Shown here: positions 31,856 to 37,839 of the stretch, piece after piece | Layout: every line of letters begins with the position of its first letter | Position numbering within the stretch: the stretch's first letter is position 1 | Assembly (NCBI RefSeq): GCF_900104685.1 | Contig: NZ_LT629755.1 | Location: 1,240,001-1,304,000 of the forward strand | Reading direction: 5' to 3' | DNA: 64,000 nucleotides | From: Agromyces flavus | GTDB lineage: Bacteria > Actinomycetota > Actinomycetes > Actinomycetales > Microbacteriaceae | The notes under the pieces: generated by a model | What the model was told of the DNA's origin: nothing | What the model saw: only the letters and a program-made list of their open reading frames with translations | Database searches by the model: none | Program-made: the position numbers and the translations under genes

Positions 31856-33934
31856 TCAGGCGTCGATGCGGTCGCGCGTGAGCGCCGCCGCGCTGTCGAC
31901 GATGAACTCCTTGCGCGGCGCGACCTCGTTGCCCATGAGCAGCTCGAACACGCGCCCCGCGCTCTCGGCGTCGGCCACGCCGACGCGGCGGAGCGTGCGG
32001 TGCCGACGGTCCATGGTCGTCGTCGCGAGCTGGTCGGCATCCATCTCGCCGAGGCCCTTGTAGCGCTGGATCGGGTCCTGGTACCGCTTGCCCTGCTTGC
32101 GCAGCGTCGCGAGCACGCCCTGCAACTCGGCCTCGGAGTACGTGTACAGCACGTCGTTGGGTTTGGATCCGGGATTCAGCACCACGACCCGATGCAGCGG
32201 CGGGACGGCGGCGAACACGCGGCCGTCCTCGATCATCGGCCGCATGTACCGGAAGAACAGGGTGAGCAGCAGCGTCCGGATGTGCGCGCCGTCGACGTCG
32301 GCGTCGCTCATGATGATGACCTTGCCGTAGCGGGCCCCGGAGAGGTCGAACGTGCGGCCGGATCCGGCGCCGATCACCTGGATGATGGATGCGCACTCGG
32401 CGTTGCTCAGCATGTCGGCGATGCTCGCCTTCTGCACGTTGAGGATCTTGCCCCGGATCGGCAGGAGCGCCTGGTGCTCGCTGTCGCGCGCGAGCTTCGC
32501 CGTGCCGAGCGCCGAATCGCCCTCGACGATGAACAGCTCGCTCTGCGCCACGTCGCTCGAACGGCAGTCCACGAGTTTCGCCGGGAGCGACGAAGTCTCG
32601 AGGGCGTTCTTGCGACGCTGCGTCTCTTTGTGGGTGCGCGCCGAGATGCGCGCCTTCATCTCGGAGACGATCTTCTCGAGCACGAGAGAGGTCTGCGCCT
32701 TGTCGTCGCGCTTGGTCGAGGCGAATCGCTCGCCGAGGGCCTTCTGCACGACGGAGGCCACGATGGAGCGCACGGCAGGGGTGCCGAGCACCTCCTTCGT
32801 CTGGCCCTCGAACTGCGGTTCGGGCAGCCGGACCGTGAGGACGACCGTGAGGCCCGCGAGGACGTCGTCCTTCTCGAGCTTGTCGTTGCCGACCTTGAGG
32901 CGCCGCGCGTTCTGCTCGACCTGCTGGCGGAGGAACTTGAGGAGCCCCTGCTCGAAGCCCGCCTGGTGGGTGCCGCCCTTCGGCGTGGCGATGATGTTCA
33001 CGAAGCTGCGCATGACGGTGTCGTAGCCGATGCCCCAGCGGAGGGCGATGTCGACGTGGCAATGCCGTTCGACGTCGGTCGGGATCATCGCGCCGTGGTC
33101 GTTGAGCACGGGGACCGTCTCGGTGAAGCGACCGTCGCCCGTGATGCGCCAGACGTCGGTGACCGGTCCGTCGACGGCCAGGTGCTCGGCGAATTCGGAG
33201 ATTCCGCCGTCGAACTGGAAGCGGTGCGACTCGCGCTCCTCGCCCCGCTGGTCGACGACGGTGATCGCGAGGCCGGGCACCAGGAAGGCGGTCTGCCGTG
33301 CTCGGTTGAGCAGCTCGTCGACCTGGAACGACGCGCCCTTGGTGAAGATCTGCGGGTCGGCCCAGTACCGCACGCGGGTGCCCGTGACGCCCTTCGCGAC
33401 ACGCCCGACCTTGCGCAACTCGCTGGATTGCTCGAACGGACTGAACCGCGAGGCCGGCGACACGACCCCGTTGTCGGCGAACACGCCGGGCTCGCCGCGG
33501 TGGAACGACATCGCCCAGGTGGCACCGCCGCGATCCACCTCGACGTCGAGCCGCTCGGACAGGGCGTTCACGACCGACGCACCGACGCCGTGCAGGCCGC
33601 CCGATGCCGAGTACGAGCCCGATCCGAACTTGCCGCCCGCGTGCAGCTTGGTGAACACGACCTCGACGCCGGTGAGGCCGGTCTTCGGCTCGACGTCGAC
33701 CGGAATGCCGCGGGCGCGGTCGCGCACCTCGACGCTGCCGTCGGCGTGGAGGACCACGTCGATCTCGGTTCCGAAGCCGCCGAGCGCCTCGTCGACGGAG
33801 TTGTCGATGATCTCCCACAGGCAGTGCATCAGGCCGCGCGAGTCCGTCGAGCCGATGTACATGCCCGGTCGCTTGCGGACGGCCTCGAGGCCCTCGAGCA
33901 CGGAGAGATGGCGGGCGGAATAGTCGGAGCTCAC
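31856..33934 (-). CDS. parE: DNA topoisomerase IV subunit B (ParE-type)
   Basis: A 692-residue ATPase subunit. The GHKL ATP-binding site is present (EIIDNSVDEALGG with the Mg-binding Asn, then GKFGSGSYSASGGLHGVGAS as the lid), and the TOPRIM domain has EGDSALGTAK and DADVDGAHIRTLLL. It forms the heterotetramer with ParC that unlinks daughter chromosomes. The GTG at 33934 is the best start; upstream codons in frame are low in family character. A minus-strand TAGGCT eight bases before it hints at a leaderless or very short leader. Its stop lies 20 bases from that of the convergent flavoprotein gene. Confidence 0.93.
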   Translation of the reverse strand: MSSDYSARHLSVLEGLEAVRKRPGMYIGSTDSRGLMHCLWEIIDNSVDEALGGFGTEIDVVLHADGSVEVRDRARGIPVDVEPKTGLTGVEVVFTKLHAGGKFGSGSYSASGGLHGVGASVVNALSERLDVEVDRGGATWAMSFHRGEPGVFADNGVVSPASRFSPFEQSSELRKVGRVAKGVTGTRVRYWADPQIFTKGASFQVDELLNRARQTAFLVPGLAITVVDQRGEERESHRFQFDGGISEFAEHLAVDGPVTDVWRITGDGRFTETVPVLNDHGAMIPTDVERHCHVDIALRWGIGYDTVMRSFVNIIATPKGGTHQAGFEQGLLKFLRQQVEQNARRLKVGNDKLEKDDVLAGLTVVLTVRLPEPQFEGQTKEVLGTPAVRSIVASVVQKALGERFASTKRDDKAQTSLVLEKIVSEMKARISARTHKETQRRKNALETSSLPAKLVDCRSSDVAQSELFIVEGDSALGTAKLARDSEHQALLPIRGKILNVQKASIADMLSNAECASIIQVIGAGSGRTFDLSGARYGKVIIMSDADVDGAHIRTLLLTLFFRYMRPMIEDGRVFAAVPPLHRVVVLNPGSKPNDVLYTYSEAELQGVLATLRKQGKRYQDPIQRYKGLGEMDADQLATTTMDRRHRTLRRVGVADAESAGRVFELLMGNEVAPRKEFIVDSAAALTRDRIDA

Positions 33935-34080
33935 GTCGCACAAGCCTACTGAGGGCCACCCCCGATGCCGGCCAGGCGCTTCGCGCAGAGCGAAATGCAG
34001 GGCAGCACGGAAGTTTCCCGGCCCCGGCCGTGTTTTCATTGATGACAACGGAACGGATTGTGAGCTACGGAGGAGGCGCC

Positions 34081-34404: not shown

Positions 34405-35148
34405 TCAGGCGCCGACGGATGCCGCGACGCCGGCGGCACGCAGCTGCGCCGCTCGCGCGGAGTCGGCGTAGCGGTCGACGACCAGCGCCTGCGCTCCGGG
34501 CTCGTAGGTCGATCCGGCGCGCACGCATATGCGCTCGAGCATGGCGTCGGCCAGCTTCGGATTCTTCGCGAGCACGGGTCCGTGCAGGTGCGTGCCGATG
34601 ACGTCGCCCATCCGCAGGCCCTCCTGCCCCGAACCGCGCCCGTTGCCCGACCCCGCCTGGACGCGGCCGAGCGGGGAGGCCTCGGCGCCCACGTAATCGC
34701 GCGCGTGGTTCTCGAATCCGACCAGGAGGCCCAGCCCGCCGCCGGCCTTCACCACGAGATCGCCCGCGATGCGGCCCTCGCGCGCCACCGCTCGGCCGGC
34801 GACGATGCCGAGCCCCTCGACGGTGCTGCCGTCGGGGCGCTCGATGCCCCAGCTGAGCAGTTCCCATCCGGTGCCCACGGCGAGGATCGGCACGCCCTCG
34901 GTCCCCCAACGGCGGAGCTCGTCGTGCACCTCGAGCAGCCGCGTGCGGCTCGTCTCGAGCGACGCGTCGCTGCCGGAGCCGAGGATCACCGCGTCGACCT
35001 GGGACGGCAGGTCCTCGGCGCGCTCGACGGGCACGACGCGCGCGTCGTGCCCGGCCCAGCCGGCGCGCGCCGCGAGCACGGCGGCGTTCTCGGCATCGCC
35101 GTTCGTGTTCTGCAGCGAGGGCAGCAGGGAGACGATCGTCAGGGTCAT
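34405..35148 (-). CDS. gatD: GatD-like class I glutamine amidotransferase lacking its catalytic Cys
   Basis: A 247-residue protein of the CobB/CobQ-type amidotransferase fold, matching GatD, the glutaminase partner of MurT in lipid II isoglutaminyl synthase. Family marks include GFENHARD and GTHLHGPVLAKNP, which carries the conserved catalytic His (His189). The nucleophile elbow, normally AICGGYQ-like, reads AVGTGWE: the cysteine position is Gly92 (codon GGC). The only cysteine, in RICVRAG near the C-terminus, is not in an elbow. Glutaminase activity is therefore not expected. The ATG overlaps the murT stop by four bases (ATGA). In canonical systems this pair amidates the D-Glu alpha-carboxyl of lipid II; this version probably does something else. 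The gene symbol marks homology, not proven function. Confidence 0.85.
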   Translation of the reverse strand: MTLTIVSLLPSLQNTNGDAENAAVLAARAGWAGHDARVVPVERAEDLPSQVDAVILGSGSDASLETSRTRLLEVHDELRRWGTEGVPILAVGTGWELLSWGIERPDGSTVEGLGIVAGRAVAREGRIAGDLVVKAGGGLGLLVGFENHARDYVGAEASPLGRVQAGSGNGRGSGQEGLRMGDVIGTHLHGPVLAKNPKLADAMLERICVRAGSTYEPGAQALVVDRYADSARAAQLRAAGVAASVGA

Positions 35149-36401
35149 TCCGCTCCCGTGAGTCCGAGGTGGGCGCGCGTGCGCCGCATCGCGTCGGCCG
35201 AGAAGACGATGGTCTTCACGCCCGAGTGCGGCGAGGGCGCGGCGAGGAAGTCGTCGAGCGCGCGAGCGAGGTCGGGTTCGACCCGGTCGATCGCGACGCC
35301 GTCGTACGCGAGCATGAGCGCGGCCTCGTCGGCCTTGGACCCGCTCACGATCGCCACACGCCCGAGCGACGAGGCATCCGTCGGCCAGAAGTACGACGGG
35401 TCGCGCACGTCGGACCCGATCGCGAAGAGGATCTGCTCGGTGCCGGGCGCGATGCTGTCGACGTTGAGCTGGTAGCTCGCCGGGTTCTGGACCAGGACGA
35501 AGTCGACCTCGTGGCCGCGTACGGTGACGCGCTCGCCACGGCCGAACACCGCGGGGATGGCGCTGAGCGCGGCGGCCGCGGTCTCGGGCGCGAAGCGCTC
35601 GGCCAGCACCGCCTTCGCGGTGGCGTAGGCCGCGGCTGCGTCCACGGCGTAGTGCGTGCCCCGGGCGGGCAGGCCGATGGGGACGGATGCCGCGCCGTCG
35701 GCGAGTACTGCCGAGGCGCCGTCGACCGAATCGACCAGGGTTCCGTCACCCGGGTCGAGGCGCCGTGCGCTGGTCTCGGTGTGGCCGAGCCCGCGCGGTG
35801 CGGCGGCGAGCACCGCCTCGGACACGCCGAATCGCCGCACGCGCACCTCGGGTCGGAGTCCGCCCGCGAGTCGCTCGAGGTACGCGTCGTCGGCATTCAC
35901 CACGACCGTCTCGTGTGCGCGCGCCGCAATGCGCGCGAGCATGCCGGCGACCATCTCGGAGTCGTGGAAGCGGTCGATCTGGTCGACCATGACGTTCGTG
36001 AGCGTCACGACGCGTGCGTCGACCCCCTGCATCACCAGCGCGCCGTGGCCTTCGTCCATCTCGAGGACGGCCATGTCGCCCGGCACGCGGCCGCGCCAGT
36101 CGGCGCGTTCCAAGAGCGCCGACGTGAGCCCTTGGCTGATGTTCGCGGTCGACGGGTTCGTGAAGACGTCGACGCCGTGAGCGCGCAGGATGGCCACGAG
36201 CATCTTGGTGGTCGTCGACTTGCCGCTGGACCCCGAGACGACCACGAGGCCCTGCGGGAAGCCGGACAGGGTCCGCTTGAGGTAGCCGGGCGCGAGCCGG
36301 TTGACGATGAGGCCGGGAACGGCCGATCCGCCGCCGGGCTTGCGCAGCCGGGCGGCGAATCGGGTGAGCCTGCCGACGAGGATCGCCGGCGCGTAGCGCA
36401 C
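35145..36401 (-). CDS. murT: MurT-like Mur ligase without zinc ribbon
   Basis: A 418-residue Mur-ligase-family protein. The P-loop is SGSSGKSTTTKM (Lys61), the central ATPase motif is LEMDEGHG, and NADDAYLERL closes the middle domain, so ATP-dependent carboxylate activation looks intact. Canonical MurT has a four-cysteine zinc ribbon inserted in the middle domain; this protein contains no cysteine at all. The C-terminal signatures have also drifted: VQNPASYQLN stands where KNPAGWNE-type is usual, and SDVRDPSYFWPTDAS where DGRDVSWLWD-type is usual. The GTG at 36401 starts seven bases after the sigA stop, and gatD overlaps its end. Co-transcription of sigA, murT and gatD is likely. Confidence 0.85.
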   Translation of the reverse strand: MRYAPAILVGRLTRFAARLRKPGGGSAVPGLIVNRLAPGYLKRTLSGFPQGLVVVSGSSGKSTTTKMLVAILRAHGVDVFTNPSTANISQGLTSALLERADWRGRVPGDMAVLEMDEGHGALVMQGVDARVVTLTNVMVDQIDRFHDSEMVAGMLARIAARAHETVVVNADDAYLERLAGGLRPEVRVRRFGVSEAVLAAAPRGLGHTETSARRLDPGDGTLVDSVDGASAVLADGAASVPIGLPARGTHYAVDAAAAYATAKAVLAERFAPETAAAALSAIPAVFGRGERVTVRGHEVDFVLVQNPASYQLNVDSIAPGTEQILFAIGSDVRDPSYFWPTDASSLGRVAIVSGSKADEAALMLAYDGVAIDRVEPDLARALDDFLAAPSPHSGVKTIVFSADAMRRTRAHLGLTGAE

Positions 36402-36408
36402 CGCCGGC

Positions 36409-37839
<1,431 letters not shown>

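Follow-up and report, generated by a model that had tools for sequence, protein, structure and literature searches.

A sigA-adjacent MurT/GatD-like pair without the glutaminase cysteine in Agromyces flavus and other Microbacteriaceae: a candidate amino-acid ligase for group B peptidoglycan

Introduction

What might a MurT/GatD-like enzyme pair attach to its substrate when the glutaminase partner has lost the residue that releases ammonia? The question is raised by two adjacent genes in the window, by which we mean the whole 64,000-nucleotide stretch of Agromyces flavus DNA that was analysed. The wall of Agromyces is of the B2gamma type. Group B walls, an old class that reportedly goes back to Schleifer and Kandler in 1972, use the alpha-carboxyl of D-Glu as the bridging site. 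An excerpt from the literature describes group B peptidoglycan as linking positions two and four (PMC6721243). In our searches of the open-licence part of PubMed Central we found no paper naming an enzyme for the D-Glu bridge bond of group B walls, and no paper there holds the words MurT and Microbacteriaceae together. A preliminary description of this DNA had proposed that the pair may be a repurposed ligase, which joins an amino acid instead of ammonia to D-Glu. Our analysis partly supports that interpretation.

Results

The window GatD-like protein has glycine at the position of the catalytic cysteine

The murT-like and gatD-like genes overlap by 4 bp, and 7 bp separate the sigma-70 gene from the start of murT (Table 1). 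We refer to the gyrase-B/ParE-type gene at the other border as parE, the choice of ParE over GyrB being our own reading. Residues 3-218 of the GatD-like protein align with S. aureus GatD (E 2.9e-28). The alignment places Gly92 (GGC, 34873-34875) on S. aureus Cys94 and His189 (34582-34584) on S. aureus His189, which bears out the preliminary description on both the missing nucleophile and the retained catalytic histidine. Excerpts from a study of S. aureus GatD state that the C94S and C94G substitutions abolish lipid II amidation and that the fold of the C94S protein is intact (PMC6113224). The window protein naturally carries the residue of the dead C94G mutant. Glycine is also found at the nucleophile position in 120/120 database relatives (the best 120 of 588 scored), and the named close relatives among the matches listed are Agromyces.

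The MurT-like protein aligns with its S. aureus and S. pneumoniae counterparts chiefly through residues 1-178 (E 1e-18 to 2e-17). Its P-loop and acidic ATPase residues are in place (Lys61, Glu114 and also Asp116-Glu117), as had been noticed from the letters along with the lack of any cysteine. In Pfam searches, GATase_3 and Mur_ligase_M scored above cut-off in the pair, and MurT_C came near its cut-off in the MurT-like protein (27.8 and 24.4 bits vs 25). The NCBIfam isoglutaminyl-synthase equivalog cut-offs were missed by both proteins (GatD, 110.9 vs 450; MurT, 80.5 vs 800). Because the defining cysteine is absent, we do not file the pair as a glutamine-hydrolysing isoglutaminyl synthase. A second, intact murT/gatD pair in the genome would, by the preliminary description, count against its reading. 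We found no such pair in the Agromyces genome: there was one MurT_C match genome-wide, and among the four GATase_3 matches the GatD profile matched the window GatD-like protein only, the other three giving no match.

Table 1. Features of the window, and of loci from other contigs (prefix L)
Feature	Position	Strand	Remarks
gyrase-B/ParE-type topoisomerase gene	31856..34048	(-)	downstream slot border; Pfam DNA_gyraseB, Toprim, HATPase_c
GatD-like partner	34405..35148	(-)	247 aa; motif AVGTGWE; glutaminase nucleophile replaced by Gly92
MurT-like ligase	35145..36401	(-)	418 aa, 0 Cys
Asp334 of MurT-like	35400-35402	(-)	equivalent of S. aureus Asp349
Ser309 of MurT-like	35475-35477	(-)	in NPAx motif
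Glu114 of MurT-like	36060-36062	(-)	
Lys61 of MurT-like	36219-36221	(-)	P-loop
sigma-70 gene (sigA)	36409..37839	(-)	upstream slot border; Pfam Sigma70 regions 1.2, 2, 3, 4
consecutive genes for diaminobutyrate transaminase, class II MurT and a dead GatD	L319:2407-5772		
tandem racemase-like genes, one short	L408:3221-4887, L414:2127-3856, L415:7543-9251		between ligase and parE
ATP-grasp_ST protein	L408:2122-3138, L407:6986-8161, L413:3647-4666, L415:9335-10357	opposite	beside CofE-like or class II genes

Most cysteine-less GatDs of Microbacteriaceae accompany one MurT clade

We searched 199 Microbacteriaceae genomes with the GatD protein and with profiles for GatD, class II and CofE (the latter two are described below), and 48 of the 199 with a MurT profile. 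At the 148 GatD loci read, the nucleophile position was occupied by G in 88, A in 22, C in 22, S in 7, N in 4, T in 3 and H in 2. We designated as class I the 124 GatD loci with a nucleophile that is neither Cys nor His, so that the absence of Cys from this class holds by definition; nine genomes were put in class I by a MurT match alone, and their GatDs are outside the nucleophile tally. In a tree of 242 sequences, the class I MurTs formed one clade (123/123, support 1.0; one of the 124 was too short and was omitted) with no Cys-type pair inside, which supports class I independently of the nucleophile-based label. Sister to this clade is one lone Cys-type copy (support 0.88).

Lys61, Glu114, Asp116, Glu117, Arg144 and Asp334 of MurT are kept in 123/124 class I loci (about 99%), and the catalytic His of GatD is kept in only 84/124. 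Cys and His are both kept in 22/22 Cys-type GatD loci of the Microbacteriaceae and in 53/53 GatD loci read in nine further families of the order, grouped by family and not by wall type; the 53 loci come from 52 of the 78 GatD-positive genomes outside the Microbacteriaceae, one genome being represented twice. Among the GatDs read in the order, loss of the cysteine was found in the Microbacteriaceae only. The drift from the NPAG signature of MurT noted in the window proved general, as Ser replaces Gly in 121/124 class I MurTs. For the DxSW signature, also described as drifted, Asp is kept in 123 of the 124 class I MurTs and Ser in 118; the residue that follows is Trp in 82 and Tyr in 38.

Some GatD-like sequences of the family are irregular. 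Short, very divergent GatD-like partners adjoin MurT in small-genome lineages (L246-L253), and one Agromyces GatD match (G429) is split over two overlapping stretches.

The preliminary description had also taken the loss of the four-Cys zinc ribbon of MurT as a sign of the switch. We scored the ribbon as the pattern C..C-(10-45)-C..C and detected it in 0/124 class I MurTs, in 4/22 of the Cys-type MurTs of the family, in 9/53 of those from other families and in 10/12 class II genomes. Part of a published account likewise states that the MurT zinc finger is limited to some bacteria (PMC6113224). The pattern is thus scarce in Cys-type MurTs too, is kept in class II, and is uncoupled from loss of the GatD cysteine. 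We therefore reject it as a marker of the switch and drop it from the argument.

Three classes of ligase gene occupy the slot beside sigA

Class I loci have sigA as a neighbour in 114/124 cases, compared with 0/22 for the Cys-type copies, and a gyrase-B/ParE-type gene lies in the fetched stretch of 59/110 class I loci. Class II consists of 12 genomes with a GatD that lacks both Cys and His; sigA was within the fetched stretch in 10 of them. The class II MurTs form a clade of 18 (support 0.984) together with two further variants and four Clostridia MurTs that have Cys-less GatDs. This separate dead-GatD clade indicates that the GatD cysteine was lost at least twice. Among the 120 matches listed as database relatives of class II, the nucleophile position holds 118 Gly, 1 Asn and 1 Ser, and the catalytic His occurs in 0.

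Class III is a CofE-like protein of ~228 residues, present in 27/36 genomes without a class I or II pair. The one protein scanned scored 50.3 bits against Pfam F420_ligase (gathering score 25) and 34.9 bits against the cofE equivalog (cut-off 180.65), so by that test class III proteins are CofE-like and are not F420 enzymes. They adjoin sigA in the fetched stretch in 23/27 genomes, and in G020 one gene lies between.

In the main count over the 199 genomes, classes I, II and III never occur together within one genome (Fisher, 1.5e-6 for I vs II and 3.9e-16 for I vs III, with genomes treated as independent, though they are not). A weak CofE match (E 1.4e-40) lies beside the window-type pair of the class I genome G147; we left this match out of class III, and including it would produce one overlap. 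A CofE-like gene adjoins a dead-GatD MurT variant in G053 and G123, which belong to one genus. At least 15 genera mix solutions (g1, g7, g9, g13, g38, g43, g49, g54, g58, g59, g68, g75, g77, g84 and g85). One of the three classes is carried by 172/199 genomes, 18 have a Cys-type pair only, located away from the slot, and 9 have no pair and no CofE match. Genus g17 combines one Cys-type-only genome with two of class I.

Genus g54 twice has a CofE-like gene next to a MurT with the zinc ribbon and a variant of dead GatD; one of these loci is in the sigA slot and the other is not (L409:8816-11611 and L410:9607-12514). In three genomes of genus g50, a cystine-type ABC transporter fills the sigA-parE slot, with no MurT/GatD or CofE match (L398, L399 and L400).

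Some slots are flanked by racemase, ATP-grasp and transaminase genes

Racemase-like (Alr) genes were present in the fetched stretch of 37/110 class I loci, and ATP-grasp_ST genes in that of 22/27 class III and 7/12 class II loci. Racemase, ATP-grasp_ST and diaminobutyrate-transaminase genes occur at some loci only, and none is in the window. At L434 (G177), sigA, MurT and a Cys-less GatD are followed on the opposite strand by transaminase-like and Alr-like genes, and the diaminobutyrate-transaminase-like protein is 60% identical to that of L413 (G020), where a diaminobutyrate transaminase (601.8 vs the curated cut-off of 552.2) is encoded between sigA and CofE. On an Oscillospiraceae contig (L319), a diaminobutyrate transaminase gene precedes a class II, dead-GatD MurT by 28 bp; its product scored 543.3 vs 552.2, and 576.4 vs 438 for the subfamily model. 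The tandem racemase-like genes listed in Table 1 possibly encode a diamino-acid racemase. This gene context suggests that diaminobutyrate synthesis, racemisation and ligation are brought together in one place.

CofE-like domains of sister families are fused to an AsnB-like protein

Across 248 genomes of the order, 89 have GatD and 26 a CofE-like match, with 0 overlap; the 89 exclude five weak matches (G301, G315, G328, G341 and G393), and the same pattern holds within four families. Outside the Microbacteriaceae, the 19 CofE matches fall in open frames of 809-1016 aa. In the 12 of 19 that were fetched (L503-L514), the frame encodes a long AsnB-like protein with the CofE-like domain, assigned with our own profile, at its C-terminus. 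The domain stands there behind an asparagine-synthase-like protein, whereas the CofE-like proteins of the slot stand alone. Pfam searches of four fusions found the synthase domain in three and F420_ligase in one, below cut-off. The glutaminase start MCG and the motif SGGLD are both kept in 5/12 fusions and not in the other 7. Five of the six fusions from families f18 and f6 keep both and the sixth lacks the Cys; in f12 the Cys is absent from all six fetched, and partial reads of two further fusions keep SGGLDS. In part of the sister families, then, both kinds of ligase come with an apparent ammonia source, and in the sigA slot they come without one, although the seven fusions without Cys mean that this contrast is not a clean rule. 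The AsnB-CofE protein may be an alternative D-Glu amidase.

Wall type and genomes outside the scheme

Wall types were available from papers for very few of the surveyed genomes. The wall of Rhodoluna lacicola is typed as B2beta in an excerpt that reports D-Ala-D-Dab and Gly-D-Glu peptides (PMC4156110), and its GatD, encoded between sigA and parE, has Ala at the nucleophile position. Leucobacter points the other way. Parts of two papers give L. celer, L. musarum and L. chironomi as B-type with diaminobutyrate (PMC4804768, PMC4511665), and an excerpt from a third reports diaminobutyrate for L. salsicius (PMC4148977). Relatives of the Cys-type GatD profile have Cys in 120/120 cases among the matches listed, with names that include Leucobacter, Lysinibacter and Canibacter. 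From genus g15, which has GatDs resembling those of Leucobacter, we infer that Leucobacter lacks classes I to III. Given a B-type wall and a Cys-type GatD in Leucobacter, its bridge bond must come from a different enzyme, unless the assignment is mistaken. Classes I to III are lacking in Lysinibacter sp. HNR (G024) and Canibacter zhoujuaniae (G088); G005, with the same genus label as G088, has a Cys-less pair away from sigA.

A B-type species with a Cys-type GatD as its only pair had been named in advance as evidence against the ligase proposal, and our data go partly that way, with the 18 Cys-type-only and 9 pairless genomes of 199 and the Cys-type GatDs of named Leucobacter. A Cys-less pair in every B-type genome is rejected, as 27/199 genomes of the family lack all three classes. 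By Mur_ligase_M counts we found no extra Mur ligase in these 27: there were 6 matches in each of the 18 Cys-type-only genomes, and 5 in eight of the nine pairless genomes; the ninth, an 87% complete genome, had 3, and one CofE genome (G023) also had 6. ATP-grasp_ST was rejected as the missing ligase, being above cut-off in only 2/27 (G014 and G051). Given the Cys-type-only genomes and Leucobacter, the pair cannot be more than one route among several to the bond.

Erysipelothrix, Eubacterium limosum and Acetobacterium are B-type Firmicutes. A contig scan with a generic P-loop pattern, in which 55 of at least 80 loci were read, gave 47 loci with GatD, of which 43 had Cys and 4, on Clostridia contigs, had Gly.

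Discussion

We conclude that across one MurT clade of the Microbacteriaceae the glutaminase nucleophile has been lost and the ligase site retained, in one chromosomal slot, with near-exclusive replacement by class II and CofE-like proteins. From these comparisons of sequence and gene order, we read the pair as a ligase that joins an amino acid to D-Glu in the wall precursor, with a probability of roughly two in three. Its chemistry is probably that of a MurT ligase. MurT would activate the D-Glu alpha-carboxyl of the precursor, as lipid II or a UDP form, with ATP. The amine would come from an amino acid, since GatD no longer releases ammonia from glutamine; candidates are Gly and, for B2-type walls, a D-diamino acid, D-Dab for example. 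GatD would stay as a structural or amine-guiding partner, and the product would be the D-Glu alpha-amide that starts the B-type bridge. Substrate, donor and product are what we infer for the pair. The repurposed ligase of the preliminary description is favoured by the dead glutaminase beside a kept ligase site, by the confinement of Cys loss to one family among the GatDs read, and by a slot that also houses CofE-like ligases, with racemase and diaminobutyrate-transaminase genes next to it in some genomes. It is weakened by the pair not being universal, and most weight against it is carried by the B-type organisms with a Cys-type pair.

The window pair resembles the MurT-GatD of S. aureus (6gs2/7q8e) and S. 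pneumoniae (6fqb) in its two adjacent genes, in a ligase core with the P-loop, Glu/Asp and the Asp349 equivalent, and in a GatD fold by sequence; the acceptor carboxyl is likely the same. It differs in lacking the nucleophile Cys and the zinc ribbon, in having NPAS for NPAG, and in its fixed place beside sigA. CofE (F420-0:gamma-glutamyl ligase), whose distant relatives fill the sigA slot in genomes without the pair, belongs to a fold family unrelated to MurT-GatD. In an excerpt on its mechanism, CofE is described as forming an acyl phosphate, through which a carboxylate is linked to an amino acid (PMC10861534). Pseudomurein archaea are described, in part of one paper, as having a MurT homologue without a GatD homologue (PMC11915815); we liken this archaeal protein, which has no GatD at all, to the window pair by description only.

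The pair might instead still amidate D-Glu, using free ammonia, with GatD as a structural subunit. This would need the least change, as the whole MurT active site is kept, and it would fit the retention of GatD despite a dead glutaminase. Amidation would, however, block the D-Glu alpha-carboxyl, the bridging site of a B-type wall, and an amino acid is favoured as donor by the swap with the CofE family, whose known member joins one, and by the transaminase and racemase genes nearby, so we consider free ammonia unlikely. An amino-acid ligase could also serve another carboxyl of the wall peptide or another polymer. Nothing in the data fixes the acceptor, and the ATP-grasp_ST and racemase-like neighbours would also suit another cell-surface product; this choice of acceptor nevertheless seems improbable to us, given the invariant MurT residues and homologues that act on the carboxyl of D-Glu in lipid II.

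Two other readings would give the pair little or no role. A decaying, non-functional leftover is suggested by the very short, divergent GatDs of small-genome lineages and by the split G429 match, but it is very improbable for a pair with MurT residues intact in 123/124 loci and a slot fixed across the family. That the Cys-less pair is a minor accessory, with another enzyme making the bridge bond everywhere, would accommodate the 27/199 genomes without any of the three classes and the B-type Leucobacter with its Cys-type GatD. The presence of one class in 172/199 genomes, together with their exclusive replacement, implies instead a needed, shared function, and we regard the accessory role as the least credible of the alternatives.

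Extending the ligase reading to the whole locus, we tentatively propose, at odds a little short of even, that the sigA slot is a B-type bridge locus. One of three ligases without an ammonia source, together with the racemase, ATP-grasp and transaminase, would form the bond between D-Glu and an amino acid. Elsewhere both kinds of ligase plus a glutaminase would deliver ammonia, AsnB-CofE being a second D-Glu amidase, and loss of the ammonia source would be the switch.

If the ligase reading is true, the pair provides a testable gene for the defining bond of group B walls. It would also show how loss of the ammonia source converts a glutamine amidotransferase into an amino-acid ligase, and wall type could be read from the genome.
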